Source: Paramacrobiotus metropolitanus (Eukaryota > Tardigrada > Eutardigrada > Parachela > Macrobiotidae). From it: DNA of 48,320 nt. Positions 1-16,743 of the stretch are shown piece after piece. The stretch is taken from assembly GCF_019649055.1 (NCBI RefSeq), contig NW_026570548.1, forward strand, positions 1 to 48,320. Direction: 5' to 3'. Made by a program: the position numbers and the translations under genes. Below the pieces are notes generated by a model that had not been told where the DNA came from, made no database searches, and saw only the letters and a program-made list of their open reading frames with translations. Position 1 is the stretch's first letter, and every line of letters begins with the position of its first letter.

Positions 1-686
1 CGAAAACGCATCCCCATTCTCTTTGCGTTCGACAAGACTTTATCCATACAAAGTTGAAAGGTCGCAGGTCCATTTGCAGACTCAAAAGGCATTCTTTGAA
101 ACGGAACATTCCGTCCTGCGTGACGAAAGTTGTCTTATCTTTCGAGGCTGGATCCATTGGGATCTGCAGAAGCCACTTTGTAAGTCCATCTTGCCGTAGT
201 ACTTGTTTCCCGCGCATGCGTCAAGCAGTTCGTCTGGGTTCGGCGGTCGATAGTTGTTCTTTTTCGTCAGCTTGTTCAGCAAAATCGCAATTGACGCAGA
301 ATCTTGTTCCCATAGTTCCGTCGCCATTCTTCTTTGCGGCGAGTACGACCGGAAAACTCCATTCCGCATCGGATGGTTCAATGACATCTTGCTGTAGCAT
401 CTCTTCGATGTGCTTTGTGATGAATTCGACCTTTCCAACTTGTTCTTGCTGGATTGCATTTAACCGGTTTGGCATCGGCTGTGTCAATAGTGTGCGTTAC
501 CCCTTTGACATCGCCATACGGTTTCTTTGACGTGGGGAGAACTTTCCAAAACTCCCAAAATGCGTTTCGCACGTCATTCTTTTGTTCCTCAGTTAGGTCT
601 GGTCCTAACTTTAATCTTTCAATTATGTCGTTCAGTTCTTCTTTCGTCTTTGCATCCACTTCGGGATCTTCAAGGATGTTTTTCAC
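1..686 (-). pseudogene. Reverse transcriptase, N-terminal part, frame-broken and truncated by the window
   Basis: Minus-strand translation gives a lead-in with 'TIDTADAKPVKCNPAR' (686-378), then 'IEEMLQQDVIEPSDAEW' followed by 'FPVVLAAKKNGDG' and 'RFCVNCDF' (487-221), then 'GKMDLQSGF' (near 180). In Ty3/gypsy RTs these are the fingers region, the RFCVDYR-like segment and motif A with its first catalytic Asp. The three pieces lie in three different frames, so at least two frame shifts occur in 600 bases. The YxDD-containing part is outside the window. The enzyme would copy the element RNA into DNA in cytoplasmic particles. Frame changes make this copy non-functional as read, unless they are sequencing errors. 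Confidence 0.75.
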
Positions 687-733
687 GACGGTAGCCGAGT
701 TGACCTTTACATTCTCGAGGTGTTCGTAATGTT

Positions 734-1735
734 CTACGTAACCGAGAAATTGGCCCTCCTTACGGTCTTTCGGCTTTTGCTTCGGTTTTCGATAATAATT
801 TCAAATCGAGTGCCGTTATGGTCCGTGACTCCCGTTCTCGGTTGGACTTCATTATCCTTTTGAGGAGTTGCTGTATACATCAGCTTCTGATTCCGTGGTA
901 CATGAGCGCCCATCTTGACCTTTACGCGTGTGCCGAGGTTTGGTCTCAGCTTAACTCGTTGGTCGCTGTAAACCTTGATCGCTCCTTCTGGGATTCTTGC
1001 TTTCTGCACTTTAATTCTTCGAACAATGATCTCTTTCTCTTGTTGTTCGTTCTTTTCATCGTCTTCGTCGAGGTCAAGCAGATCTTCTTGATCCGAAAGG
1101 TCACTCACTCCGGAATCTTCAGAAGTGGTAGAGTTATCGCTCGTGCTCGAAAATTCCGAGTCAGATTCGCTGCTATTGTTAGCTTCAAGCTCTTGACCTT
1201 TGCTCTTTTTCTCAATTGGTCGCTCGTCGACGCCTTCATCTTCACTTTCTGTTGTAAGGTCATCGCTTTCATCCTTGGGAGCGCTAAGTTTTTTAGCTTT
1301 TCGTTTTTCGGGCAGAGGTTTGTCCGTTTCCTTGGACTTCCGTCCGTTTCGTGCAGCTATCCTTGGATTTGTTCGTGTTGCGCGAATCCTTGCTCGTGAC
1401 CTATCCCTTTCATCGTCTTCCGAGCTATCATCTGCTTGAGCGGTATTCTGTGACCTTTTTGCTTTTCCAACTGGCGGCCCTTCCTCGCCGGTTTCAGGTG
1501 ACCTTTCGTCAACTTTCGGAACTGACCTTTCTGGCTCTTCTTCCAGCATCGCGTTTAGTGACCTTTCGTTCTTCTCGGTTGGCGGCCTTTCCTCGCCATT
1601 ACCGAGTGACCTTTGTAGTGAAGCCACTAACGACGCTGCTTTCTTTTCTTGCGGCGACATTTGAGCCTTTTTTGCCTCTGTTACCGGGATTCCGTTTTCC
1701 TTGTCCCGAATCGCCTGGTTCAGTTCCTTGATCAT
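734..1735 (-). CDS. Retrotransposon pol linker ORF (protease-RT connector), acidic repeat-rich
   Basis: A 333-residue open frame between protease and RT. Residues about 1-230 are low-complexity, with 'ERPP' and 'ERSP' repeats and an acidic Ser/Asp/Glu tract near 170-230. The last 100 residues, including 'VKLRPNLGTRVKVKMGAHVP', look like the folded connector that precedes RT in gypsy-type Pol. The ATG at 1735 is probably internal: codons upstream stay open and join the preceding ORF by a frame change near 1850. The sequence is dense in AAAGGTCA motifs, read here mostly as Arg-Ser in ERSP. No independent function is recognisable. Confidence 0.5.
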   Translation of the reverse strand: MIKELNQAIRDKENGIPVTEAKKAQMSPQEKKAASLVASLQRSLGNGEERPPTEKNERSLNAMLEEEPERSVPKVDERSPETGEEGPPVGKAKRSQNTAQADDSSEDDERDRSRARIRATRTNPRIAARNGRKSKETDKPLPEKRKAKKLSAPKDESDDLTTESEDEGVDERPIEKKSKGQELEANNSSESDSEFSSTSDNSTTSEDSGVSDLSDQEDLLDLDEDDEKNEQQEKEIIVRRIKVQKARIPEGAIKVYSDQRVKLRPNLGTRVKVKMGAHVPRNQKLMYTATPQKDNEVQPRTGVTDHNGTRFEIIIENRSKSRKTVRRANFSVT

Positions 1736-1745
1736 CTGAGCTAAC

Positions 1746-3539
1746 TCATACGGTGTATGTGAGGGTTCCTCTTCTTCGGCGCCTGTGCCGTTTTCTTGAG
1801 CAGCACTTGTGCTGACCTCTTGTTCTTTTTTCTTTGGTTTCTTCGGCGCTTGTGCCGTTATCTTTGTTCTTTTCTTCTTCGGCGCTTGTGCCGCTTTCTT
1901 TTTCAGCGCTTGTGCCGTGACCTTTCGGTCTCTTATCGCCGATAAAGACGCAATTTGCCATCAGTTCTTCTGTAGTCCAGTCATTGTTCGGTACCGTCTC
2001 ATACATGCACCAAGTATCTCCGCCTCTTTCGGGATACTCCACTCCATCTGGATCTGGTGCAAAGGTCACCTTCTTTTTTCTCAGATAGCCAAATAATCCG
2101 AGTACGCGTCTTTTTCGCGTGACCTTTAATTCAGGGATTTCTCCTGTATATATCGGTACTTCTTCGAGGATTTTGCCCCATTGTTTGTTCCATTCTCTTA
2201 AATTTCCCTTTTTGAGGCAGGCCTGGTAATGGTCAAATAATTCGTACATTACTGTGCCGAGTCCGATTGGGAAAATGATCGCTCGTCCTTGACCTTTCCA
2301 TAGGTAATTGACTCTGAATTCCCAGAATAAGTCAACCCTAGCTTGTTCCCATATTTCGTTCTCTTCCATTGCTCGTCGCCTTTCTCTGTCGAGCTTTGTA
2401 ATCGGGTTTGTATACCATGGGTCGCTTTTATCCGCTTTTTCGGGAATGAAGTTGTCCGCTTCTTGCTGCCAATGATGGAGCCACTTCCCTCTGGAGATGA
2501 TGTAGTTCTTGACTACCGATAACCATTCTCGATAACATTGCCAAAGGTAAGTTGCTTTTGACAGTTCCGGCATGGGAAGTGTTCGCATAATCGACTTGAC
2601 CTCTTTCTCTTCTTGTCTTTTATGACGTGCAATTGCTGCATTGCATTTCGGCCACTCCGAAAGGTCATCTTGTGTCATTTCTTGCATGCATTTTGCACAT
2701 CTTTCTTGAGGTCGCGCTATCGAAAGGTCATCGCTGTCGTGCCAATCGTGATGGCAAGAGGTTGCTCTCTCTTCCGCAGTCCATTCTCTCGGTTTGCGGG
2801 AAATGACGCGATTGTTCCCTTCCGGCATCCGTTGTCTCGGTTCGGGACGGGCGATAACTCGCTTATCCGTTTCTCCGGAATCGGTATCTGTCCATTCGTC
2901 ATCTTTTTCGATTTCGATTACGCTGTTATCTGATGATATTTCGATGACTTCGATTTCTTCATCTGCAGAGCGTGGTTCGGAAGTAAGACGACGACTACTC
3001 TCTGCTACCTCTTTGCGCAGGCGCGTGTCTCGACCTTTCATCCGCCCTCTTGCTTTATCACGTGGTTCGAAAGTGTGTTGAGCACCATGCTCCGTTTTCC
3101 TTGCATCCAGTTGCTTTATGGCTTGATGTCGTATTTCCGAGAATAGTGCTCTTTCGTCGCTGTTCATCAGTCCTGGCTCTGTCCTGGGCCCAACCATTCT
3201 CGTGCCCAGTGCCTCTGGTACTGGGAGTAGCCTTGACCACTCCATTCCTGGCACTAGCGACTGTTTCTTTGCAATCAGTGCTTCTGCTTGCATTATCTTG
3301 ATTTGTTTCATCGTTGGTGACCTTTGATTTCCTTTAGACTTCGGTGACCTTTTGCTTCTTTCAGCATTTTCTAATCCCTGTGCCTCTGGTACTGGGATTA
3401 GATTTTCACCATTCTCATTTTGCTTATTTTCTTTCGATCCCTGTGCCTCTGGTACTGGGATAGCCGTTACTTGAATTATTTCTTGGTTGAAGTTCGGTGA
3501 CCTTTCCTGCATTAACTTTTGCGGATGATTTTGGCTCAT
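1746..3539 (-). CDS. Retrotransposon pol linker ORF with PVPEAQG and GTSAEE repeats
   Basis: A 597-residue open frame that overlaps the end of the protease frame by about 115 bases. It contains three copies of a P-V-P-E-A-(Q/L)-G peptide near residues 28, 48 and 107, ERSP repeats, an acidic stretch around 195-225, and a possible zinc-binding cluster 'CHHDW...CAKCMQ...CNAAIARH' around 263-310. A C-terminal GTSAEE repeat runs into an Arg-rich tail that looks like the wrong frame: in the next frame the repeat continues and joins the 734-1735 ORF. The peptide repeats coincide with DNA hairpins (see findings). I do not recognise a family. Confidence 0.45.
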   Translation of the reverse strand: MSQNHPQKLMQERSPNFNQEIIQVTAIPVPEAQGSKENKQNENGENLIPVPEAQGLENAERSKRSPKSKGNQRSPTMKQIKIMQAEALIAKKQSLVPGMEWSRLLPVPEALGTRMVGPRTEPGLMNSDERALFSEIRHQAIKQLDARKTEHGAQHTFEPRDKARGRMKGRDTRLRKEVAESSRRLTSEPRSADEEIEVIEISSDNSVIEIEKDDEWTDTDSGETDKRVIARPEPRQRMPEGNNRVISRKPREWTAEERATSCHHDWHDSDDLSIARPQERCAKCMQEMTQDDLSEWPKCNAAIARHKRQEEKEVKSIMRTLPMPELSKATYLWQCYREWLSVVKNYIISRGKWLHHWQQEADNFIPEKADKSDPWYTNPITKLDRERRRAMEENEIWEQARVDLFWEFRVNYLWKGQGRAIIFPIGLGTVMYELFDHYQACLKKGNLREWNKQWGKILEEVPIYTGEIPELKVTRKRRVLGLFGYLRKKKVTFAPDPDGVEYPERGGDTWCMYETVPNNDWTTEELMANCVFIGDKRPKGHGTSAEKESGTSAEEEKNKDNGTSAEETKEKRTRGQHKCCSRKRHRRRRRGTLTYTV

Positions 3540-3850
3540 CGTCTTCAGCTTCAGTTTCTCTTTCTTCCTCGTCGTGTCCGTCTATCAGGACGAATTTCTT
3601 TGCGAGGAAGTCGAATCCCAGTAGGACTTGGACGTCGTCTGACGCTGGTCTGACGTAGAATGAGTGTTGACTGGTTTTCCTTCTTAAGGTCACTGGTGCT
3701 ACGCAGTAGTGCGTTACTTCAAAGCCTGACGTTCCACTGATCCCTTTGATCATCACCTTCTTTTTCGGTGGAAGTCTGACAGTCTGGAGGCCGTTCCTCT
3801 CTCGCAGAACTGTTGACAAATCAAAGACGTCTCTGCGCCAGTGTCAAGCA
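3424..3850 (-). pseudogene. Retroviral-type aspartic protease domain of the retrotransposon, frame-broken at the active site
   Basis: The active-site motif LDTGAET is encoded at about 3840-3815, and the C-terminal flap/helix motif 'VLLGFDFLAKKFVLIDG' at about 3615-3565. Retropepsins normally carry D(T/S)GA followed about 60-80 residues later by an (I/L)LG(x)DFL motif, so both halves of a retropepsin are present. The motif is in a different frame from both its upstream neighbour (ORF ending at 3844) and its downstream continuation (3819-3424), which share a frame. Two compensating shifts therefore flank the catalytic Asp, the first at a run of six A (minus strand). As read, no single protein carries a complete protease. 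Confidence 0.7.
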
Positions 3851-5595
3851 TTGCCATGACCTTTTTTATTCCCAATTTTGACTTCATGTGTATAAGCTTC
3901 GATCCGTTTCGGTAAGTTTCCATCTTCGAGTTTCAAGACTCTTATTCTACACTTGACTGGGATTGGTGCAGCGTGCTTGCTCTCTATCAGACCTTTTGAG
4001 CTCCAACGATCTATCCGTTTCGGTACGTCGGGTCGCACATCTGAGAACTTTTCGATCCTTTTTGACTTCGGTAAGATATTCGCTTGCTCCTTCGCAGCGT
4101 TTTCTTTACCCGTGACCTTTGCCACTTCGCACGTCAAACCCTTCTCTTGTGCGTTCTCGTGACCTTTTATCACTTGCGCAATAACTTCGTATTGTGACTT
4201 TTCATTGCGCACGTCTTTAGACGGCTTATCTTGCAACTTTGCCATTATCTCTTGCGTAATTTCATCCGCAAAGGTCATCTCGTCATCTTCACTCTTCTTC
4301 TCTGGTGACCTTTCGTACACAACCATCTTATGGTCGTTTTCTTTCATCCAATCTGTAATTTTCTTCGCAATTTCGTTATTCGTGCGAGTTGGATCGATTT
4401 GAGATGACAATCCGTCAGTTCTTGGCGGTGACCTTTCGTTGTCATTCCGGATTGCCTCTGTCATGTCATACGACTTCTCCTTCTGCGGAGTTTGCGCTAA
4501 GTCCGGTGACCTTTCCGGTCTTGACATGAAAAATCCGCCATTTAGTGACCTTTGTAAAGGTACTTTCTCACCATACTGAGGCGGTAATTCACCCTTCTCA
4601 ATCCGCTCTCGAAACTGACGGTTATTTTCGTCGCATTGGACTTTCTCTTTCCAGTAGTCTTGTACTTTCGGTTGTGAAGCTTTAACCATTTCCTCGAGAT
4701 GTTTTCTCATCCGCCAATCTTGTTTCTCTCTTTCCTCCCAGTAAGCTTCTCTGGAATTTCTCACGTCTTGCGGTGACCTTTGCGGCGGAGGAACTGGTTT
4801 CCACATACCGTGCCGTCCATTCGGTCTGTAAGCGACTTTTTGCCACTCCATCTTCTGTTGTAGAGTGTTTGCCTCATCGAGAGAGTCATCTGAGACTTGC
4901 TGTGCCCCTTCGCTCTGTTTCACTGTTTGCTGCGCCATTCGCAGAGTCAAGTTACTTTCTTGACCTTTCGGTTCATCGGCGACTTCACCGTGACCTTTCT
5001 CTTTCAGTGACTCTTGAGTCTGCTGCACTGGCAATCTCTCGTGACCTTTCACTTCTTCAACTCTCGCTTGAGGTGACCTTTCGGTCTCTTGCGCTCCTTG
5101 CGCAGTCACGGCCCTTCCGTGATCTTCCTCGGCAGCTCTTGCTTGAAATACTTTTGCCATCTGCTCAAGGAATTTCGGTCTATCCGGACCGCCTTCGTGC
5201 GTTCGTTGTACGGTTACGGTCATTCCGTCAAATTCAAACGTATTTTCGACGAACTTTCGGAATCTCGCGTGATGTGTTTCATCATCCTCTTCGCTTGAGA
5301 TTTCCGCTTGCGTCTTTCGCAGAGTAGCTTCACTCTTCCTCGCGGTTGCTTTCCGCGGTGACCTTTGGGTCTGCTGTCCTTGCAGCGTCACGTTACTTTC
5401 GTGACCTCCTTGGTTTGCAGTTACTTTCTGCTGTCCCGGATGCAGAGTTGAGGCCCTTCCGTCAACCCTGTTCCCCGCAGTTACTTTCTGCGGTGACCTT
5501 TCGGTCGGCCCCGGTTGAGTCAAGTTACTTTCTTGACTCCCCGCAGTTACTTTCTGCGGTGACCTTTCGGTCAAATTCTTCCGTCCTTGCGGCAA
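3844..5595 (-). CDS. Retrotransposon spacer ORF upstream of protease, rich in ERSP/KVTAG repeats
   Basis: A 583-residue open frame between the gag tail and the protease. It has no good ATG at its 5' end, so it is probably part of the gag-pol polyprotein reached by frameshift. Residues 1-80 carry repeated ERSPQKVTAG-type peptides; ERSP recurs throughout. The centre is charged and Gln-rich and predicted unstructured. The C-terminal 75 residues ('HAAPIPVKCRIRVLKLEDG' onward) look folded and lead into the protease, as the beta-strand before the DTGA loop does in retropepsins. The repeats are also DNA hairpins and AAAGGTCA sites, so the peptide repetition may be a by-product of nucleotide repetition. 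Confidence 0.5.
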   Translation of the reverse strand: MPQGRKNLTERSPQKVTAGSQESNLTQPGPTERSPQKVTAGNRVDGRASTLHPGQQKVTANQGGHESNVTLQGQQTQRSPRKATARKSEATLRKTQAEISSEEDDETHHARFRKFVENTFEFDGMTVTVQRTHEGGPDRPKFLEQMAKVFQARAAEEDHGRAVTAQGAQETERSPQARVEEVKGHERLPVQQTQESLKEKGHGEVADEPKGQESNLTLRMAQQTVKQSEGAQQVSDDSLDEANTLQQKMEWQKVAYRPNGRHGMWKPVPPPQRSPQDVRNSREAYWEEREKQDWRMRKHLEEMVKASQPKVQDYWKEKVQCDENNRQFRERIEKGELPPQYGEKVPLQRSLNGGFFMSRPERSPDLAQTPQKEKSYDMTEAIRNDNERSPPRTDGLSSQIDPTRTNNEIAKKITDWMKENDHKMVVYERSPEKKSEDDEMTFADEITQEIMAKLQDKPSKDVRNEKSQYEVIAQVIKGHENAQEKGLTCEVAKVTGKENAAKEQANILPKSKRIEKFSDVRPDVPKRIDRWSSKGLIESKHAAPIPVKCRIRVLKLEDGNLPKRIEAYTHEVKIGNKKGHGNA

Positions 5596-5853
5596 TCTTT
5601 TTACACCCTTCTCTTGACCTTTACGAGCCCCTTCGCTCGATTTCGAGTTACTTTCTCGAATCCTCGGATTTCTTTTCCGGGTCTTTGCGTTACTTTCTCA
5701 GCATCCCTTTCTCGCTGCGGTCTTTGCCTGCAACGGAGCACCTTGCTCCTCTATATCCGGTGGTTTCGGTTCCGGACGATCAGTAGGCTCACCGGCGCCT
5801 ACTGACCTTGAACGTTTCCCTGGGCCATTCCCTGAACCGGCGCACCTTGCGCC
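4946..5853 (-). repeat. Array of short hairpins with conserved loop and co-varying stems
   Basis: Plus-strand coordinates. Loop TTACTTT with stems: GTCAAG/CTTGAC (4946-4964), GTCACG/CGTGAC (5387-5405), GCAG/CTGC (5417-5431), CCGCAG/CTGCGG (5475-5493 and 5541-5559), GAGTCAAG/CTTGACTC (5517-5539), TTCGAG/CTCGAA (5642-5660). Variant loop TTGCTTT: CGCGG/CCGCG (5341-5357). Related hairpins: TGCGC/GCGCA around TCCTT (5090-5104), TCACGG/CCGTGA around CCCTT (5106-5122), CTGC/GCAG around TGTCCTT (5371-5385), CGAGC/GCTCG around CCCTTC (5624-5639), GGAGCA/TGCTCC around CCT (5735-5749), GGCGCA/TGCGCC around CCT (5839-5853). In the element's RNA the loops read AAAGUAA, AAGGG, AAGGA and AGG. Confidence 0.8.
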
Positions 5854-6381
5854 TGACCGGCACCATTCGCCGGGGCGAAGTTAAAGCCTCCGCCTTGCTG
5901 ACCGAAACCGTTCTGGTTCCCACCGACGAAGCCGCCTTGCTGCCCGCCGAAGTCGCCCTGGCCACCTTGACCGGCGAAATTGCCCTGGCCACCTTGACCG
6001 GCAAAATTCTGGCCACCTTGACCACCGTTATTCCACTGGCTCTCCAGACCAGCACCGTTCCATTGGCCACCTTGACCACCACCATTCCATTGGCCACCGC
6101 CGTAATTTCCGCGATTGCCGCCACGGCCTCTTCTCTTCCTCGGAAGCCTCCTCTCACCGGACCATATCCGCCATTTCCTCCGCCTTGGCCACCGTGACCG
6201 GCGAAGTTGCCTGGCCTCCGGCAGGATTTCCTTGGCCACCTTGACCACCGGGGTTGTACCAGAAATTACCCTGGCCGCCTTGATTGACAGCAGTTGGCCT
6301 GGCCACCTTGACCGGCATACCGTCCACCTTGGCGTGATTGTGGCACATAACCATTTGCCATTGCGTTGCGCCATCCACCAT
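5799..6381 (-). pseudogene. Gly/Gln/Asn-rich gag tail, spread over two reading frames
   Basis: Continues gag downstream of the CCHC knuckle. Minus-strand translation is built of GGQGGQ, QWNGGGQGG and NFAGQGGQG type repeats. The repeat starts at the very end of the main gag frame (stop at 6266), continues in a second frame (6381-6154) and finishes in a third (6374-5799). The repeat-rich DNA is a likely place for slippage. Such Gly/Gln-rich tails are typical of RNA-binding, phase-separating nucleocapsid extensions; that role is inference. Confidence 0.5.
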
Positions 6382-9300
6382 GATTGTTACGCAGCATCAA
6401 CCATTCTTCATACACGACCCTGTTGGGGTTCTGATTCCACGGTGTTCCCGCAAACGAACACGCTTGCGTGTGGTGGTTACCGTACATGCAGTTCTGGCAT
6501 GTCAGCGCGTTATTGGCCACCCATCCGTCGATCATGGTGAACAGGCGCTCTACTCGCGACCCGTATCGTGGTCCTTGATTTCCTTGTCCACGGTTCGGTC
6601 GGAAGTTTCCTTGATTTCCTCCGCCACCGTTGAATCCTTGGCCGGCAAAGCCCGGATTCCCTTGAGCCATTCCCTGACCGCCAAGCCCTCCATTCAGGGC
6701 ATTTCTTTGCACGTTTCCTTGTGGATTCTGTTTTGGCCTTGCTGCTTGCTGAGCTGATGCTTGGATCGCCGCGATCGCAGGCTTGGTCGCTTCTTGGACC
6801 GCTGTCTGTATCGCCGCGATCGTCGCGTACGATATCTGACCTTCATTTCGCTCGTTGTCAAAGGTCACCTCTTGAGTGCCTAAAGGCGGAAATTCCGTGT
6901 TATATCTTGGTACCTGCGCCGAGTACGACTGGTTCTGTCGCCCATTCGCGACTTCTTCGATCTGGCGCGATCGGATGATCACGCAATCATCTTGGACTCG
7001 GTTGCCTCTCGTGACCTTATACTTTTCTTCGCCAGTCGACCAGGTGCGGAAGAATTCCTTGATATCCATTGGGTTATGGAATTTCTGTGCTCGAAGTGCC
7101 TTATAAAGGTCACTGTCGTTCTTACATCCTTGAATCAGGAATCCGATAGCCTGCTTCTCAGTTATGATCCGTTTCGACTTGAAGCGCATGATCGCCTGAT
7201 AGAACTGGTCAAGCGTTTCTTTGCCAGCCTCGAACTTTCTTGTCATCGCTTCTCTTAAGGCGTTGACCCCTTCGTCACGATCGCCAAAATGTTCTTTGAA
7301 CTTCGTCATCCATTCGTCGACGGTTAGTTCTTCCGCCTCTTCCTCATCATCAATTTCTCTTTCCGCATCAAACCATGCCTTCGCGTCCCCTTTGACTGCG
7401 TTGGCGACTTCCAGCATCATTGCTGCATCCGAAAGGTCATACGTCTTCTGAGTCTCCTTGACCTGACGGATCCAACCAAGTAAAGCTTCTCGGTTGCCGT
7501 TGTAGTCGATCAACGCGGATTTTCGGGCCATGGCTCTCATGTAACCTCTGAATTCCCGTTCTTCGCGACGGAGTCGCTGTGCTTCAGCGTGGTATTCCGC
7601 GCGGTACTCTCTTTCTCGCCTCTCCTCTTCACGAGCTACCCTTTCCTGCTCGTTTTGGCGAACTCGTGGATCTTCATGATTGTCTGGCTGATGGTCAGAT
7701 TTGTAGACGATTGTTTCCCTCGGTCCTGTTTCTTGTTGCCGAGGATTGACCCCACCGATCGGTCCTGAGTGCCCCTTCGCCAACTCAGTATCGTCGGTGA
7801 CCTTTTCAGCTTTGACCTTATCTTCATCATGGCCGTCGCTTCGGCCAGTCCCCGTCTTTAAGGGAGCTTGGAAATGGAAGCTACCTTCGACGGTGTGGAC
7901 TTCGCCATATCCGGGGGGTGGAGATTCGATCCGTTCCGGCTGTTTTGCCTCTCCTTCCTTTTGTTTTGCCGACCGTTTTAAAGTTTTAATTTCTTCCTCT
8001 CTTTGTTTGACTGTCTGCTGCAGCTGCTTTACGGTTTCGTTTGCGTCTTTCCTGAGCTTCTCATAATCGTTGTTTGCTTCGGTGACCTTTCTCATTTGCT
8101 CGAGGATTGTACTTGCTCGATTATCGAGAGTCTTATCGAGATCCATTTTTGCTGCTTTTAGGATCTCAGCTTCTGCTTCCAACCGTGTGATACGATCCGC
8201 TCTGTCTGCGAGGGTCCTTCCTCTCGCTTGGCACTCTTCCTCGACTACTTTCAGTTGGGCTTTTAGTTCCGTAATTTTATCATCCTTTTCCATTACGGAA
8301 GTAGCCAATCCGACTGATTCGTCGCTCAATTTGGCGATCTCTTCTTTTTGTTTTTCATTTTCTGTCTTTCCTTCTTTATTCACGACTTCTAGGACAGTGA
8401 CCCGTTCGTCACACCGTTGTGCTTCCTTCAACCACTTCTTTGCTTCTTTCTTTTGGTTGTCGATTTCGTCATTGAGTCGCTTGAATTCAGTTTTTGTTAT
8501 TTCGGCCAGTTCAAGCAGTTCCTTTGCTGCTTGATCTCTCTGGTTTTCCGCTTCGTTGTGTTTCCTTTTCATCTCTTTTAATTCTGTTTGTAACGTGTTG
8601 ACAAGGTCTTCGCGTAATTTAAGGTCATCCTTCAATTTCGAGATGTCAGCCGTCAAACTGGTGACCTTTCCGGTGAACTTCGTCGCATTTGCTAGAGATT
8701 CGTCACGTTTCTTCTCGGCCTCCTTGACCTTTGACTGTAAAAGGTCACGCTCATTTTTCAATTCTGCTATTTCCTGTGACCTTTCAGCTGCTTCCTCGGA
8801 CAGACCGTCTTCTTCTGCGGTGAGTATGCCTTCCGCGTCTCGATCTTCGACCATTTTCCTCAGATCCTCTGCAGCTTTTTTCTGACCTTCAAATCTGACT
8901 TTCCATTGTTGCGCTTCATCTTCGAACGTGACCTTTTCTTGTTCCATCACGCTCAATCTGGCTTCGACTTCAAAGGTTTTGTTGCATTGGTCCCGTATCG
9001 CAGCGAAAGCTTGCGCTTCCTTTTCGTCGAGGAGTTGTTCTAGTTCCTTGACACGCTGCTTTAATCCATTCATTACGGATGTTTTTGGTGATGGTGACCT
9101 TTGGTCCGGGTCGTCGGCTCTTCCTGACGCCATTCCTTCAAAGGTCTCTTCTGGCTTGTCCTGGAGGGTCGTATCAAACATCCCTTTCGTTAAGTTTGCC
9201 TCCTTCATTGCCGTATGGAAAGACGTCTGTACCGTCGTTTCGTCTTCATCGTCAGTGTAAAACTTGTCACTTGACGTGGGGCTGGTACCGTTCTCTTCCA

Positions 9301-9832
9301 GCTGTTCTTGTAAGAACAGTGAGTTTTCCGAAAGGTCATCCTGTTTGACCTTTCCCTCGTCGATCAGCTCGTTGCTGCTGACGGCGCCACTACCTTCGGT
9401 GACCTTTTGACTGACTTCGTCACTTCCCTTCTCAACTTGATCCGCGTTTTCCTCCTTGACCTTTTCGGCCGACCGTGCCATTCCTCCGGTCTCGGCCTTC
9501 TTGTCATCTTTGTTCTGTCCATCTGAAGCCGTTCTCTCTTCGGTGACCTTTGCTTGGTCTACCGTGTTATCTCCGACATGTCGTTCGGAGCTTTTTCCAT
9601 TTCCGTCACTCGAGCTTTCGTTCTGAGTTTCCCTCAGGGCCGTTTGATATGTGGCCTCTGAGCCTCTGGCGTCCTTCCTCCCAAAGGTCTTTTGAGCTAG
9701 AGTTGCTCTTTCATGTTCCACGGGCCGTGTGTACGGCTTTAGTTTCCGTTCGTAAGGGTTTTCTAACCCCTGAGACCGTTCTCTCTGACTGCTCGATGAG
9801 ACCGGTTCATTACCGTCTGTGTCTTGGTCCAT
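6266..9832 (-). CDS. Retrotransposon Gag with coiled coil, capsid-like domain and CCHC zinc knuckle
   Basis: The open frame begins upstream at 9940 (TTG), but the first ATG is at 9832 ('MDQDTDGNEP'), giving about 1188 residues, far longer than an ordinary Ty3 Gag. Numbering from the open frame: residues 40-280 are polar and disordered, about 290-690 form a long charged coiled coil, about 850-1010 contain a capsid-like retrotransposon Gag domain ('ALLGWIRQVKETQKTYDLSD', 'WFDAEREI', 'FKEHFGDRDEGVNALREAM', 'FLIQGCKND'), and 1148-1161 read 'CQNCMYGNHHTQAC', a perfect C-x2-C-x4-H-x4-C knuckle. Gag would assemble particles and package RNA. The frame holds many AAAGGTCA motifs on both strands. Confidence 0.75.
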   Translation of the reverse strand: MDQDTDGNEPVSSSSQRERSQGLENPYERKLKPYTRPVEHERATLAQKTFGRKDARGSEATYQTALRETQNESSSDGNGKSSERHVGDNTVDQAKVTEERTASDGQNKDDKKAETGGMARSAEKVKEENADQVEKGSDEVSQKVTEGSGAVSSNELIDEGKVKQDDLSENSLFLQEQLEENGTSPTSSDKFYTDDEDETTVQTSFHTAMKEANLTKGMFDTTLQDKPEETFEGMASGRADDPDQRSPSPKTSVMNGLKQRVKELEQLLDEKEAQAFAAIRDQCNKTFEVEARLSVMEQEKVTFEDEAQQWKVRFEGQKKAAEDLRKMVEDRDAEGILTAEEDGLSEEAAERSQEIAELKNERDLLQSKVKEAEKKRDESLANATKFTGKVTSLTADISKLKDDLKLREDLVNTLQTELKEMKRKHNEAENQRDQAAKELLELAEITKTEFKRLNDEIDNQKKEAKKWLKEAQRCDERVTVLEVVNKEGKTENEKQKEEIAKLSDESVGLATSVMEKDDKITELKAQLKVVEEECQARGRTLADRADRITRLEAEAEILKAAKMDLDKTLDNRASTILEQMRKVTEANNDYEKLRKDANETVKQLQQTVKQREEEIKTLKRSAKQKEGEAKQPERIESPPPGYGEVHTVEGSFHFQAPLKTGTGRSDGHDEDKVKAEKVTDDTELAKGHSGPIGGVNPRQQETGPRETIVYKSDHQPDNHEDPRVRQNEQERVAREEERREREYRAEYHAEAQRLRREEREFRGYMRAMARKSALIDYNGNREALLGWIRQVKETQKTYDLSDAAMMLEVANAVKGDAKAWFDAEREIDDEEEAEELTVDEWMTKFKEHFGDRDEGVNALREAMTRKFEAGKETLDQFYQAIMRFKSKRIITEKQAIGFLIQGCKNDSDLYKALRAQKFHNPMDIKEFFRTWSTGEEKYKVTRGNRVQDDCVIIRSRQIEEVANGRQNQSYSAQVPRYNTEFPPLGTQEVTFDNERNEGQISYATIAAIQTAVQEATKPAIAAIQASAQQAARPKQNPQGNVQRNALNGGLGGQGMAQGNPGFAGQGFNGGGGNQGNFRPNRGQGNQGPRYGSRVERLFTMIDGWVANNALTCQNCMYGNHHTQACSFAGTPWNQNPNRVVYEEWLMLRNNHGGWRNAMANGYVPQSRQGGRYAGQGGQANCCQSRRPG

Positions 9833-9940
9833 ATCTTTGGCTTCCGTTGATGATCGGATAACTTGGACGATGCTAATAATGTTTCTGACACGTGTGTTAG
9901 TTTTAGCTACGTAAGCCCCTTTACACGTAAACAGAAACAA

Positions 9941-10345
9941 GTGCTGTCCTAAAGGTCACCTCCTTTTGTATCAGCTCAATTTTACTAAAGGTCACTCTGC
10001 CTCAAAAAATGCTAAGTCCCTTCTAAAGGTCACTTCCTTTAGTAAAATGAGATTAATTTCCCACTGTTTCAGCTTAATAGCTTACTCCGTCGCGTTATAG
10101 GTAACTTTTTCCTTCAGAACTTTTCTGTTTTAAAGGTCACTATCAACTTCGTTCTAGAACGTCTAACCTGAGAATATTTTTCGATTTTATTGAGAAATCA
10201 ACTTAGATTTCCTCAGAATAAACGTTATTTATTCAGCTTTCAACTTTTAATAAAGGTCATCATTCTCGTCGAAATTTTGGTAAAGGTCAACTTCTCGTCA
10301 GTCGATTCAGAAAATTTTCTCAGCTGGCTACGTCACGATCTTAAG
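9941..10345 (-). promoter_or_regulatory. Gag leader with six AAAGGTCA motifs
   Basis: This non-coding stretch lies just upstream of gag and holds AAAGGTCA at about 9946, 9988, 10026, 10134, 10253 and 10281, all in the same orientation on the plus strand. AAAGGTCA is the classical monomer site (NBRE type) of NR4A/HR38 nuclear receptors and contains the AGGTCA half-site used by many others. Because no protein is encoded here, these copies cannot be explained by codon choice. Whether they bind a receptor, act in the RNA, or only share origin with the coding copies is unknown. Confidence 0.45.
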
Positions 10346-10605
10346 TGCCGTGCGCAAAAACTCCGCCTCCTATCGAAATCTCAGCTTCTAATTGGCTAAT
10401 TTCCTAACTACGCTACTGCGCCAATCACAGTGCGAATAACTGACCAATCAGAAACGTTGTTTTTCAGATTATAAGGCAGAGTGACGTCACGTCGAAAATC
10501 GAAAATTTTAGCTAGCGCGCCGTGCGCAAAAGTACCGCCTACTTTTCGCTCAGCTCATCACCGACCAATAAGAATTGAGGATTTTACCAATCAGCCAATA
10601 GCTAA
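10346..10605 (-). promoter_or_regulatory. CCAAT-box/CRE-rich promoter-like block, probably the retrotransposon U3
   Basis: Within 260 bases there are about six CCAAT/ATTGG boxes (near 10392, 10420, 10443, 10564, 10588 and 10595), a perfect CRE palindrome TGACGTCA (about 10481), and two copies of a block starting CCGTGCGCAAAA followed by a GC-box-like ACTCCGCCT or GTACCGCCT (10350 and 10519). A TATAAG lies at about 10470 on the plus strand. The position upstream of gag and the duplicated enhancer-like layout fit an LTR U3 driving minus-strand transcription. The LTR ends are not identified, so a host promoter cannot be excluded. Confidence 0.45.
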
Positions 10606-10859
10606 ATTAATAAACGAAAATCTGACCTGATCGTCTCCGTGATCCAGAAATCGATCCTGCGCGTCCTTCCGCGATTCCTCCAATCCTCCAGCGATTAAGC
10701 TGACTTCTCCTGGGCCAGCCGATAACCCCTTCCGTTTCGCCTCAACGGGACGCAACGGTGCGTCGACCAAATAGCTTGCTGGCTGCGGGTCTTCTGTCGC
10801 GCCTTGACGTTGGCAACGACAGGGGCGCTCGATCACCCTTTTGGGAGAGCGCGTATAAT

Positions 10860-11062
10860 GTGTGTGTGCGCTCTACTCAGTAGAGACGCACCTGAAACTC
10901 CACACCCGACAGCCAAAAGTGGCTTGCCCACTCGTGCCCCCCTTCGGGCTTCTGCCTCTTGCGGCGATCTTTCTCGGCGCTTGTGCCCCTCCAATCAAAG
11001 CTACTTCAGTAGCCTTGATCGCGTCAGGTCAGTACAGCGTGCTCTACTCAGTAGAGACACAC
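10860..11062. repeat. Short palindromes including two copies of CTCTACTCAGTAGAG
   Basis: The near-palindrome CTCTACT-C-AGTAGAG occurs at about 10871 and 11042. Between them are GCTACT-TC-AGTAGC (about 10999) and CGGCGCTTGTGCC (10975), the latter identical to hairpins in the retrotransposon linker ORF at 1777-1917. This links the stretch to the retrotransposon, perhaps as part of its LTR or leader. No gene is seen. Confidence 0.4.
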
Positions 11063-11237
11063 TGATGCTGATCTGCTGAGATCCAGACGCTCCTTCGCCA
11101 CCGATCAGTACGCGAGCCCTTTCTCGCGGGAGACTTCTTCCACACCTCGTCAAATGGACGGGAAAAACTTCAGAGATTATTCTGGAGAAACACGACTCTT
11201 GCTACCATATGAGCGTGGACCTGGTGAAGGTTCACGC

Positions 11238-11293
11238 GTAGGAACAGAATTGACGGAATTCTGCCTACCAAAAAGCCTAGCAATGCTATAAAA
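11238..11293 (+). promoter_or_regulatory. Bulged hairpin followed by a TATA box
   Basis: GTAGG-AA-CAGAATT...AATTCTG-CCTAC folds into a 12-pair stem with a two-base bulge (11238-11268). About 20 bases further, GCTATAAAAGCGCC (about 11284) is a good plus-strand TATA box. An AATAAA lies at about 11596. TATA and AATAAA about 300 bases apart could mark a plus-strand LTR or a short transcript. No ORF of note follows. Confidence 0.3.
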
Positions 11294-11299
11294 GCGCCT

Positions 11300-13049
11300 A
11301 CGCTATAGAAAGCGAGAAATGGCGTGACTGCTAGGAATTTATGAACAGCCTAAATTCGATAGAATTTCCTCATGGACAACTCCGCATTGCTGACTGCAGC
11401 AAGCGTGGAAAATGCGCACGTAGCCGCCACACAGTGCGGGTGCGTGCAGAACAGCGTGCTTCCGCCACGCGTAAGGCGGGCGTGCAGCAAAACACAACAG
11501 ACTGCCAAAGCGAGGGTGTACGCATGTACGCCTGCGCTCACAGCATCAACCGTAGATCGTGCTTGTAACTGTAAGTGACCCGCTTTTCATTAAGCAATAA
11601 ACCACCACCCCACTATAGAAGTGGCAAAAGCAGAGGGCATTTATCACACCACGTGTGCGACCTGGTATCGTATCGTATTGAGTTAACGGACGGGTAACAG
11701 GATGCCTGAGCGATTAGGCCAGAAGGAAGAAGGCGATACGCGCAACACGTTATATCGGCAACGACAAATGCACGGACCGCATACGTTTTAGGATTCCGTT
11801 TCTTGTAACCGGATTGCAGTCTCCGCGTGAAGTTAAAACCTACAGAGAAAGGCCGAAGGTTCTATACAGTAGTATCCCCCAACCGGCAACGCTCCTGGAT
11901 CAGTGTTTGCATGTGTGCATTGAAGTTCCCGTAAGATGGTGGGTTGTTTGAGATGCTCTTGTTCTGAATAAAACGGAAGCTCGTTTGGAAACTTCTTACA
12001 AATGAAGACCGGAAAACTTGCAGTGCAGAGAAAGAATCAATAAAGCAAATAATCCAAAATCACAAGTTCAGCCGTACCAGCGCACAGGGAAAACAGCAAT
12101 CACAACAAAAACATCGTAATTATGCCGTATAGCATTTCGAATGAAGCCGATATGAAAAATTAGGCCGCGGTCGCCGGTTAGTAGTTCATTGGTTAAAAAA
12201 TACTGACATTACTTGCTAATTCGCATTTGCAATTATGTTATTCAAGATAAATATAGTAACTGAATGCTTAGCAGCAGGAAAATTATTATCCTGCAAAGTG
12301 CAAACCAAGTTCGGCACTTTTGCATTAGTCTTAATGGACTGCAATATTTTTTTACTGTTTAAACATGACCGTGTAAAACTGACCAGTGAAACCCCATGGA
12401 CCAGAGAAAGCCAGTAAAACCAAAATCCGCGAGAATAAATTTTAAGAACACGCATCTGAACTGAATTGGTTTAACAAATACCTTTCCACGTTTTTGACAG
12501 ACGCAAAGTGCGATGCGTTGCAGGAAATAGTCAACGGTGCCGAAAAGAAAACCTGGCCTAGAGTACTAGTATTTCAAGAGCTACAAGTAACTCGTACGTT
12601 GATAATAGAAGTACAAGTATTCATGATATTAAATTTTCCCCGCCTGGCCACCCGTAGCTATAACATATGCCTGTGCTCATTTGATGTCTAACATCGGCGG
12701 TGCAATCAGTTAATGCTATCTTGAGATGATAATCTCGATAATTCGTGTCTACCGTTGATAATGCCCGACCGTAACACTCAATGCGTATCGCTTAATGAGA
12801 TCTAATTCCAAAAATTTTCATGTTACGGGACGCATTGTGCCGCCGCAGCGAAACATGCGAAGAACATGCCAGTTGCCAACTCATATACATGTACCGGTAT
12901 ACAAACCTCCATAGTAAGTCAAGTCTTATACGTGTGTGCACTATCCGTTGGTGCTTTATTACCACACAGAGATACAGCATTCTTCTATCATTTAGTGGAG
13001 ATTCTTTTGATGTATTCTTATTATTTAGACAGAAGCCACATAAGCCAGA
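11300..13049. other. Non-coding stretch
   Basis: No ORF here shows domain similarity or codon structure; those present are under 95 codons. The region becomes AT-rich to the right and includes the 5' flank of F-box copy A, which begins at 13050. Apart from AATAAA near 11596 I see no defined element. Confidence 0.5.
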
Positions 13050-13053
13050 ATGT

Positions 13054-13062
13054 ATCTGTACG
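13054..13062 (+). repeat. Left 9-bp target-site duplication of foldback element 1
   Basis: ATCTGTACG, repeated exactly at 14709-14717. The sequence belongs to codons 2-5 of F-box copy A; copy B has the homologous codons uninterrupted at 19960. Confidence 0.85.
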
Positions 13063-14708
13063 GGCGCACCGACAACTCGCTGACCGACATCTTGCTGACC
13101 GACAACTTGCTGACGACTATTTGCTGACCGACAAAATGTTGACCCGACAGTTTGTTGAAACAACGAATCGCTGACCAACATTTTGCTGAACGACAGTTTG
13201 CTGACACCGACGATTTGCTGACGACATTTTGTTGACTGACAAAATGTTTACCCGACAATTTGCTTACATACTAATTTGTTGACCGACATTTTGCTGACCG
13301 ACGATTCGTGGAAATACCGACAACTCGCTGACCACCAGTTTATTTTGTTATCCATCGAATCATTGTGATAAACAAATAAACAAAAACACCATTTCGAATA
13401 AAAGGCTACAAAGATGCTACAAGTACAAATGCAATGAACAATACTGTTACTGGCAGATATTTGTTTCCAGGTTGTGCAAACAGCAGGATGCTATTGTGCG
13501 CATATGCAGTAACGAAATCCGTTTTCGCTGTGCAGAAACACTTTACCACTAACGATACAAGTTTAAATTTTGAGTTTTGATGGTGATACAGATACTTACG
13601 CCGCAGACCGAATACCACCGGTGTAATTATAAATATAATATATATATATAAAAACATTAATAAATAATTATTATTAACTAAGACAACAACAACAAACAAC
13701 AGATTTCAGTTATAAATGTCACCAGTGACTAAACGAAACCCCCAACGACCTCGGGACTTTTTTTTAGAGCAAATCTAACCTCGGGATAATTTTCAGCGCA
13801 TTTTTCTGATACAGAAACCATTTTTCAAAACTTTTTTTGAAAAGAAAAAATTTCTGACTGCCGGGCCCCATACACCCCCCCCGTTACCTTAGGCGGTTGC
13901 AATGGCGCCACTAACAAAAACTTTATTTTTGCCTTTAGAACACTAATTTCTAGGTAAATCGATATCGCTGATTCTGAATATGTTGTTAGAAACCTTGTAT
14001 TAGTTATCTTAAAGAAGAATCTTGCGTATTCAAATTTTTCGACGGAAATCTGCAAAATTTTATTTTTTCGAAAAATTTTCTGTTCTTCGACTCAAATAAT
14101 TTTTCTGATCGCATATTCGAAATCAGCAATGTCGATTTACCTAGAAAAAGTGTTCTAAAGGCAAAAATAAAGTTTTTGTTAGTGGCGCCATTGCAACCGC
14201 CTAAGGTGACGGGTGGGTGTATGGGGCCCGGCAGTCAGAAATTTTTTCTTTCAAAAAAAATTTTTGAAAATGGTTTCTATATCAGAAAAATGCGCTGAAA
14301 ATTATCCCGAGGTCAGATTTGCTCTAAAATAAAGTCCCGAGGTCGTTGGGGGTCTCGTTTAGTCACTGAATGTCACTGTAGTGCTTCTTTTTCATGAAAT
14401 AAACGTAGATTTTAATTTTCGCGTAAATTTTGCTTATGTGCGTTGAACAGGTCAGCAAATTGTCGGTCAGCAAGTTTTCGTTTTTTACAAGTTGTCGGTC
14501 AGCGAGTTGTCGATTACCGACATTTCGCTGACCGACAAGTAAGTTGTCGTTCAGCAAATTGGTTTCAGCAAGATGTCGGTCAGCAAGTTTGTAGAAAAGG
14601 GAAGTGTCGGTCAACGATTTGTCGGTCAGCAAGTTGTGATAGTCAGCAACAAGTCGGTCAGCAAATTGTCGGTCAGCGAGATGAAGGTCATAGAGTTGTC
14701 GTGCTACC
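13063..14708. mobile_element. Foldback (FB)-like transposon 1 with tandem-repeat terminal inverted repeats
   Basis: The left arm (13063-about 13336) is about 16 degenerate copies of a 13-15 bp unit close to TTGCTGACCGACA. The right arm (about 14449-14708) is the same unit in reverse orientation (TGTCGGTCAGCAA). Termini are GGCGCACCGACAACTC on the left and, as reverse complement, GGTAGCACGACAACTC on the right. It is flanked by a perfect 9-bp duplication, ATCTGTACG. Drosophila FB elements and Mutator-like elements also make 9-bp duplications, and FB arms are tandem repeats. No transposase is encoded, so it is non-autonomous. The interior holds an AT-rich spacer and a nested hAT-like element. 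Confidence 0.85.
13723..14368. mobile_element. hAT-like non-autonomous foldback element nested in FB element 1
   Basis: Inverted arms of about 260 bp (13723-13982 and about 14105-14368) begin CAGTGACTAAACGA and share CCCCCAACGACCTCGGGA. The whole 646-bp unit is flanked by an exact 8-bp direct repeat AATGTCAC (13715-13722 and 14369-14376). CA(G)TG termini and 8-bp duplications are hallmarks of hAT elements. There is no transposase ORF; the arms nearly meet, so the RNA would fold into one long hairpin. Confidence 0.85.
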
Positions 14709-14717: not shown

Positions 14718-16743
14718 AGCTGCAAAAAGTTAAAAGATCTCTGTACGCCTGGAATGCCGTGGATGTAGAGATTGACGGTCTCCTTCAGTACGGCCACGTT
14801 ATTGGCCTGGAAGAAACTGACGGAACAACGCCGCGTTTGATCGTCGACTTCGGCTGTCCGACCCAGGATGCAGTGCTAATGGAAGAAGGGACGATCTTCG
14901 ACAGCTCTTTGCGCCCTACCTCTAAGAAACGCCCGCCCACGGGAGAGCAGGTGGAAGTGCTGATATTCGAGCACAAGAATGGTCCCTGGAAATGGTATCC
15001 GGGCAAGATCTTGATTAAGTCCTTCCTCAACTTGGAAAAGACAGCGCTGATAGAAGTGGAAATCAATGGCTATCGTCAGCGCGAACTGCTTCCCGAAAAA
15101 CAGATCCGACGACCACTTTCGCTGGATAAACAACAGCAAAAGCGTCTGCAACCAGGACACTTCGTCTTGCGGACGTGTCGTGTGCCGAACGGTTACTGGA
15201 CGTTGGACCGGTTTGTAGCAGATGCATTGTGCCGTAAGGTAGAAAAGAAATTTCATCTTCGCTTTACGCGCGTCCTCAGCCAGGAGCTGCACTACGTTCG
15301 GCGGTGCAATGAGCCTCCAATGGATGATGCGGATGTGGTAAGATTCCCTACGAAACCGGTTTGACCTCCCAATATCATTGTTGTTTTGGTACTGCATGGG
15401 GTCGTTTCTTGTCGAACGTTAGTTATACTGTATTTTGCGTAAACCGGCAAGAAACAACCGGAAACTGTGTTTTACAGAAAAATATAGAATAAAATTTTTG
15501 CAAAATGTTTTTCTTGAATTTGTGTTGTTTGCTCTACGTAATTATGCGTAAGCTCTAACTAAAACTTTGTTCAATTCTTTTTTATTTTAGGCGAAACTTT
15601 TCGAAAGCCAGAATGGGAAATGTGTACGTTCTCCTAACGAAAAGTCGTGCCTGAGCGAACGAAAGCGGAAAAAGCGCCAAACTGCAGGGGATTGCGGTTT
15701 AGCATTGCCAGTCGAGATCTTGAAGGAGATCTTCCTCTCACTGCACACCGTCGATCAACAGCGCTGCCGACGCACCTGTCAGCTGTGGGATGCCGTGCTG
15801 ACATCGGGAGACGAGTGGAGAACATTCGTGCGCATACAGATAGAGGCAGAGGACGATTATGCCATTCATCCATACATTGGGTATAATTGCCTCTTCAAGC
15901 ACATCACGCCCGGTACGCGAACAATCTGCCTGCAAGATCCGGAATGTGGTCTTGACTACGAGGACCGCGAAGATTGGATTAAGATCAACGAAGCTGTGAA
16001 CTTGATTAGAAAAGTCCTGGACGATGGAGGCATACGCATCGACCGATTTATCCTGCACCAACGCGAGATGTTAATTGACTTATCCGAACTGCCGCTGAAA
16101 ATGTTTTTCGCCGAGACAGTCGCGCTGTATTCCAAACTGGCATCCTGCTGTGACCGTTTAATATTGAAGCAACACCGTCTGATTTATCAGTGCATAAATG
16201 ATAATTCCTGGGAATTCCGTATTCCAACGGCTGCCATGAATCCAGGCAGTGTGGACGAAGCGCAAATTTGGGATGTGTTTGAGAAGCATCTGTGCTGTGT
16301 TGGACCGAAGAGAGAGCTGTACGAAAGGCATCGGTGTCATCCGCCGGTCGACAAGCAGCGTTTGACCCACTGCCTGGCGAATTTGATTAACAGCCGAGAG
16401 AGGGCGTCGATTGTGAAGAAGGTACCTCATGTACTGTACATATACCACGGCTACAGTACTCTCCGAGAAACTGTGCATGAGTTCTGCAATTCAGCTTTTT
16501 CTAATGGCATTCCGATTATCCGGAATGATTTTACAGATTCTGAAGGATTACCAAACTTGCGATCCGCGTTCCTCCGCTTCTTACCGGAATTCGAAGTGGA
16601 TTTTGTATAATATGGCGAACATGGACGTCGGAAAGCTGAACAAACTGTGCCTGCTTGCCTTGTGGCGCGAAATGGCGTTCTGGTCGGATTCATCCTCCGA
16701 TGAGGAAGAAGGCAACAGCGACAGCTCAGATTCTGACAACTAG

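Follow-up and report, generated by a model that had tools for sequence, protein, structure and literature searches.

The genome of the tardigrade Paramacrobiotus metropolitanus harbors a giant Ty3/gypsy-type long terminal repeat (LTR) retrotransposon whose 5′ part is densely populated by one short word, AAGGTCA, which recurs about once per 150 letters on both strands and in coding as well as non-coding sequence. The element was analyzed in contig NW_026570548.1 (assembly GCF_019649055.1), whose entire length of 48,320 nucleotides is referred to here as the window, and occupies positions 1..11542 on the reverse strand, where the contig end cuts it at position 1. Taken by itself, the word is very probably a recognition word under selection. 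As to what recognizes it, we favor, at a probability of roughly 40%, a clade-specific nucleic-acid tag that overlaps the protein code and would be read by a factor encoded by the element. This reading builds on the excess of the word beyond what codons predict, its presence on both strands and in all permitted frames, its near-exactness, the constraint on its sites in the leader, the turnover of sites between two families of the element, A and B, and the apparently different and weaker word of a more distant clade, C.

Abundance and strictness of the word

AAGGTCA occurs 70 times on the two strands of the window, compared to 5.8 expected from 100 dinucleotide shuffles (standard deviation 2.2, largest 11). 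Of these, 65 fall within 701-10289, and the other 38 kb contribute 5 (14684, 22562, 35666, 39032, and 42466), which agrees with a preliminary description of the window that had estimated about 65 cores in the first 10.3 kb and about five beyond. That most cores belong to a single 8-mer is likewise correct, since AAAGGTCA is found 41 and 16 times on the two strands and thus makes up 57 of the 65 sites. Across 1-10300, the other 419 permutations of the letters of AAGGTCA give a mean of 1.8 matches, a figure that includes the 63 of AAAGGTC, which overlaps the word. In the genome as a whole, the 13-mer AAAGGTCACCGAA is matched 541 times (12 for the reversed word) and GAAAGGTCACC 2576 times (120 for the reversed word), counted inside and outside element copies together. 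The observation is real, with a stronger effect than first described, and the element turns out to be bigger and present in more copies than the window alone would show. A second word, GAAAGTAAC, is one-sided in window 1-10300, all 8 of its occurrences being on the sense strand.

The earlier statement that the word occurs on both strands and encodes different residues depending on the frame is borne out by the open reading frame (ORF) segments of the window. All three sense frames are used (KVT/KVK 15, KGH/KGQ/EGQ 11, ERS/QRS/KRS 19), as are two antisense frames (VTF/MTF 3, xDL 9), with one site counted twice where two ORF segments overlap; the third antisense frame is unused because the word there reads as a TGA stop. 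These segments contain 44 sense and 12 antisense sites, whereas 300 shuffles that keep amino acids and codon usage give means of 8.6 and 0.79, and 2000 codon-preserving shuffles of nearly the same segments reach maxima of 18 and 5. L071, a copy of family B, has 37 sense and 8 antisense sites compared to codon-shuffle means of 5.5 and 0.64. The synonymous shuffles thus rule out that codon usage and protein sequence alone account for the sites. The control proposed in the preliminary description, a shuffle that preserves amino acids and codon use, does not reproduce the count, and the contention that protein selection cannot explain it holds for both the window and L071. Relative to the shuffles, the antisense form is more enriched than the sense form, which suggests that the sense surplus in ORFs is largely what the proteins permit.

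The strictness of the word was assessed in the window element together with L071 and L076, two copies that are partly homologous and not independent. AAAGGTCAC occurs 83 times in this set, compared to 0.27 expected. Each of the 24 words differing from it by one base within positions 1-8 is found between 0 and 3 times; together these variants contribute 17 matches where about 5.7 would be expected, which leaves only a faint halo of one-mismatch words. Position 9, next to the 8-mer, is C in 83 cases, A in 22, T in 20, and G in 1, and the flanks of AAAGGTCA display weak preferences only, for example, a preceding G in 43%. On average, the sites are 150-163 bases apart, and neither a helical phase nor a fixed dimer spacing stands out clearly.

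The element and the fate of the word in its copies

The features of the element in the window are as follows.

1..11542, reverse strand: 5′ part of the LTR retrotransposon, from copies found by DNA search and from ORFs
11210..11542, reverse strand: 5′ LTR of about 333 bases, TGTGAG...GCTCA, from a second match downstream in seven copies, with the ends read from the sequence
11190..11207, reverse strand: candidate tRNA primer-binding site TGGTAGCAAGAGTCGTGT, two bases past the LTR, picked by eye
9833..11209, reverse strand: non-coding leader, from the lack of a downstream second copy of 10320-10950 and the first in-frame ATG at 9832
9952..10289, reverse strand: leader cluster of six TGACCTT on the sense strand, conserved in copies, from the motif count and copy alignment
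6269..9832, reverse strand: gag-like ORF, an open frame with a long charged, coiled N-terminal part, a capsid-like part, and a CX2CX4HX4C knuckle (knuckle and order by eye)
5802..6386, reverse strand: glycine-rich frame with short tandem repeats, 3′ of gag, from the ORF list and a tandem-repeat scan
3756..3932, reverse strand: protease segment with LDTGAETS, by eye; in the related copies L076 and L075, Pfam reports an aspartyl protease
2043..2780, reverse strand: domain between protease and reverse transcriptase (the linker) that can be aligned across families A, B, and C and has Cys/His residues in the first two; its structure model is poor
2..500, reverse strand: piece of the reverse transcriptase (RT), from DNA copies, with RVT_1 and RNase H in copy L047
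701..10289, both strands: 65 AAGGTCA/TGACCTT sites, 57 of them AAAGGTCA, from the motif count

Due to the contig end, the window copy lacks its 3′ end, and the pairing of LTRs was therefore read from other copies. In seven of them, among the 40 of 88 LTR candidates scored, the two LTRs are 17.5, 18.4, 18.7, 18.7, 24.8, 24.8, and 24.9 kb apart, the second match being about 335 bases long and nested insertions being possible. Segment 10320-10950 (40 of 87 candidates scored) has no second copy downstream among the 41 matches listed, and is for this reason assigned to the leader and not to the LTR. Pfam detects a protease in L076 and L075, RVT_1 in L075 and L047, and RNase H in L047, and across these copies the protease precedes RT-RNase H, as in Ty3/gypsy elements. 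Paired LTRs, protease, and RT-RNase H together confirm the earlier identification of a retrotransposon; the span then given, 661..10290, does contain the sites, but the element itself is longer, beginning with the 5′ LTR at 11542 and cut off at position 1, where the contig ends. The window copy has frame changes, and long open frames are kept in other copies. Against Pfam, the window ORFs yield matches to domains of unknown function only, all below the cut-off, and the gag-like ORF matches no gag family above it, its knuckle having been seen by eye. All protein records matched come from P. metropolitanus (gag query 10/10, linker query 1/1, ORF3 query 8/8). The structure model of the linker domain has a mean predicted local distance difference test score (pLDDT) of 57, and of the 81 matches that a fold search with it returned at E ≤ 10, none reached E ≤ 0.001. 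A peptide, IPVPEALG/LPVPEALG, is repeated after the protease (window 3197-3471) in families A and B, and has the form IPIPEAPG in clade C.

The six leader sites that had been described are all present, at 9952, 9988, 10026, 10133, 10253, and 10283, and 10291-11542 contains none. An alignment of 25 of the 30 leader loci (L013, L021, L031, L032, and L033, with partial or split matches, were omitted) gives a pairwise difference of 0.040 in motif columns compared to 0.189 elsewhere, although sites were taken from any row, which somewhat favors the motif columns. At eight of the nine positions, half or more of the rows have the site, and only 4% of the 7-column blocks outside the motif reach the mean conservation of these eight common sites. 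The coding pieces were aligned for 28 of 29 loci (the short L056 was omitted). Here the difference is 0.034 in motif columns and 0.086 in others for the linker, where 17% of other blocks are equally conserved, and 0.046 and 0.071 for the RT part, where the proportion is 36%. None of the 20 sites in the L047 piece lies within the RVT_1 region (residues 560-720), and two touch the RNase H region.

Family B, whose RT is mostly 81-86% identical to that of A at the protein level (150 of 1363 candidates scored), is as densely populated as A, with 49, 46, and 38 sites in 8, 8, and 7 kb; L076, beside an RT match of 76% identity, has 26 in 4 kb. At 57% DNA identity between A and B, the coinciding sites amount to 23 of 51 in A and 23 of 49 in B. 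Of the A sites aligned without gaps, 23 of 49 recur unchanged in B. The corresponding figures are 47 of 570 for permuted 7-mers (p = 8e-13) and 392 of 7862 for 7-mers overall; the aligner may favor matching words, a bias that the permuted control shares. Partial coincidence at equal density indicates that old sites are kept and that new ones arise elsewhere. The word is thus retained in other copies of the element, in the leaders as well as in family B, this being the second control that had been proposed.

A neutral process, be it tandem duplication, template switching, or repeat expansion, might have spread the word without selection. Consistent with this, there are two short tandem arrays, spacing in multiples of 12 is seen for some sites at 1451-1613, 73 of 137 neighboring pairs are separated by a multiple of three (35/64 in the window, 27/48 in L071, 11/25 in L076), and 8 of 49 B sites lie opposite gaps in A. 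However, the word fills all permitted frames on both strands, shares no long flank, has but a faint one-mismatch halo, and is constrained in the leader, so that neutral spread is already disfavored and we regard it as highly improbable. Seeding by tandem repeats was rejected, as the arrays at 1824-1925 and 5944-6098 are the only two in 1-12400, and the mobile short repeat once proposed finds no support in a long flanking consensus or in further arrays.

Clade C, represented by copies L074 and L075 (RT 68-69% identical), has no AAGGTCA in 17,002 bases. The ORFs of L075 contain 71 GNCCAA, compared to 31.4 in codon shuffles (standard deviation 4.2; largest of 500 shuffles 45), and 16 TTGGNC compared to 7.4 (largest 16). 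The excess is carried by GGCCAA and GTCCAA, that is, G[GT]CCAA, which uses all three frames (27, 14, and 9 of 50) and is kept between L074 and L075 at 44 of 51 sites, compared to 4746 of 7516 for all 6-base windows (p = 2e-4). The related [ACT]NCCAA is kept at 42 of 67 sites, the background rate, and G[AC]CCAA at 14 of 16. We take this as a lead that clade C may have a word of its own, one that is less strict than AAAGGTCA and whose excess is far smaller.

In the rest of the window, F-box matches occur in three open frames (15591-16607, 20982-21842, and 31618-32547), a lunapark zinc-ribbon match lies at 43667-44236, and short imperfect repeats of TTGCTGACCGAC, unrelated to the element, are found at 13059-13302.

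Candidate readers of the word

In L077, an A copy, the 3.6 kb before the 3′ LTR hold a 784-residue open frame, ORF3 (L077:57-2408), whose 8 sites are all AAGGTCA. The 1.2 kb that follow (L077:2409-3601) are apparently non-coding and contain 7 sites, all TGACCTT. Together with the leader, the untranslated regions (UTRs) thus have 13 of 13 sites as TGACCTT on the sense strand (6/6 in the leader, 7/7 after ORF3), opposite to most ORF sites. Relatives of ORF3 among the protein records (P0012-P0019) are 461 to 913 residues long; in P0016 (913 residues; P0012, of 849, was also examined) a CxxC...CxxC cluster and a clear arginine/serine-rich (RS-rich) part were recognized by eye. The frame is intact at 912-916 residues in many family B copies, and full-length relatives lie 8.6-8.7 kb downstream of the RT match in B copies on C213, C59, C103, and C32 (50 of 828 candidates of the genome search scored). 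Sequence and profile searches and a structure model revealed no family or fold for ORF3, the model of its C-terminal part being poor (mean pLDDT 43). A PDB match to MafB at E 0.034-0.06 falls in a charged helix and was not believed.

The polarity of the sites raises the question of a word read in RNA. The UTR form UGACCUUU could pair with the ORF form AAAGGUCA, or an RNA-binding protein (Gag or ORF3) could read the word, such that the 17-25 kb transcript is compacted, packaged, or exported. The UTRs with TGACCTT only, ORF3 of L077 with AAGGTCA only (8/8), the window ORFs with mainly AAGGTCA (44 to 12), the complementarity of the two forms, and the RS-rich part of ORF3 all fit such a mechanism. 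It is nevertheless distinctly unlikely: both forms, and the antisense form more so, exceed the codon-shuffle expectation in ORFs, where polarity may reflect what the protein allows; G-U wobble variants are not clearly better tolerated than others; local duplication can yield the UTR polarity; and the two sites in the clade C leader have their word in the ORF orientation. The enrichment of both orientations is also at odds with the sense-only RNA packaging signal entertained in the preliminary description, and a small-RNA seed site was discarded on the same grounds. A search for SL1 RNA was uninformative, as it gave no match in any genome, controls included.

The preliminary description named a receptor-binding array as one of its possible readings. 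A host receptor of the NR4A/HR38 type, or another reader of an extended AGGTCA half-site, could bind the sites for expression, insulation, or nuclear placement of the whole element. The positions at which the word is strict spell AAAGGTCA, identical to the core of the NGFI-B response element (NBRE). The full NBRE, AAAAGGTCA, is bound by NR4A monomers (PMC7883379), and this portion of the proposal stands. The lack of a fixed dimer spacing is as expected for a monomer site, and the host has nuclear-receptor zinc fingers (63 zf-C4 matches, exon by exon). In usual clusters of receptor sites, weaker near-match sites surround the core. Such near-matches are rare here (0-3 per variant, and 17 over all 24 kinds compared to 83 of the full word). 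The same host also harbors clade C, which lacks the word and appears to have another, and saturation of ORFs would serve no known enhancer use. Host promoters contain NBREs singly or in small numbers, and we know of no array in which about 65 receptor sites are packed into 10 kb of largely coding sequence. A host receptor is thus one of three candidate readings and an unlikely one; if it is the reader after all, the element would be an unusually dense receptor-site array in mobile DNA.

Under the favored reading, a tag read by an element-encoded factor, families A and B would accumulate and keep AAAGGTCA through the leader, the ORFs, and the 3′ non-coding part, wherever the protein tolerates it. 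The tag would be bound over the full length of the element by a sequence-specific protein, and copies richer in tags would leave more descendants. The reader would most likely be encoded by the element, the candidate being the ORF3 protein with its RS-rich part and, in family B, its CxxC...CxxC cluster, and it may mark the element as self, for example, by keeping chromatin open against silencing in the manner of the VANC proteins. An element-encoded reader is favored because the word is apparently clade-specific and is strict and because VANC21 offers a precedent: the 9-base site of this protein loses binding on single-base changes, its relative VANC6 uses other sites, and VANC proteins, though related, read different 8-9 base words (PMC5735166).

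Several points weigh against this reading. The UTR polarity of 13/13 is unexpected if the word is read symmetrically in DNA. The sites in the coding pieces are just mildly more conserved than other blocks, and multiple-of-three spacing at 73 of 137 neighbors implies that some of the array owes its layout to the protein frame or to duplication in frame. No DNA-binding domain was recognized in the element by Pfam or by the searches with ORF3. The absence of AAGGTCA from clade C does not amount to depletion, since codons predict less than one (0.4 and 0.3 in L075); the clade C word is looser and was picked from the same data it was scored on, in two related copies only; and its strict antisense form TTGG[AC]C is hardly enriched in L075 (10 compared to about 5.4). 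Finally, VANC words reside in non-coding tandem repeats (PMC5735166, PMC10398659), whereas most of the tardigrade sites are in ORFs with few tandem arrays.

If the tag reading is correct, the element continually gives up some freedom in its coding sequence for the sake of an address word, and how transposons and silencing contend in an animal could be tested with one protein and one 9-base probe. It would also be a natural case of a dense nucleotide code overlapping the protein code in all permitted frames, with a word that has apparently changed between clades of one genome. The broader generalization, a second code across genes in which a near-exact 8-9 base word serves as a self/non-self address, an element-encoded factor recognizes self DNA or RNA by it, and each clade switches its word, strikes us as rather doubtful.

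Comparison with known systems

Term searches of an open-access library for a similar case in retrotransposons turned up nothing of the kind among the papers listed, which is not proof of absence. Clustered protein-binding sites are known from the leader of a Ty3/gypsy element, namely the Su(Hw) array of Drosophila gypsy. That array is confined to the leader and its sites are degenerate, whereas the tardigrade sites extend beyond the leader and are near-exact. In size (>17-20 kb) and in having extra ORFs, the element resembles the giant Ty3/gypsy elements Burro of planarians and Ogre of plants, but the internal proteins differ and the parts of the source used here mention no saturating word (PMC6431247). 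The DNA uptake sequences of Pasteurellaceae and Neisseria are also short words that occur genome-wide, inside genes too, and with one orientation commoner within genes, although they belong to bacterial chromosomes and the competence machinery and not to a mobile element (PMC2346458). For the word itself, the likeness is to the NBRE (PMC7883379).

The closest parallel to the proposed mechanism is the VANC/VANDAL system. VANDALs are Mutator-like DNA transposons (MULEs) of the plant Arabidopsis with known VANC proteins and known binding, whereas here the element is an LTR retrotransposon of an animal and the reader is only a candidate. In both cases, a short and exact word of 8-9 bases has accumulated across a transposon family, every base matters (in VANDALs, for VANC21), and the proposed effect spans the whole element; related families have different words in VANDALs and may have them in the tardigrade as well (PMC5735166, PMC10398659).

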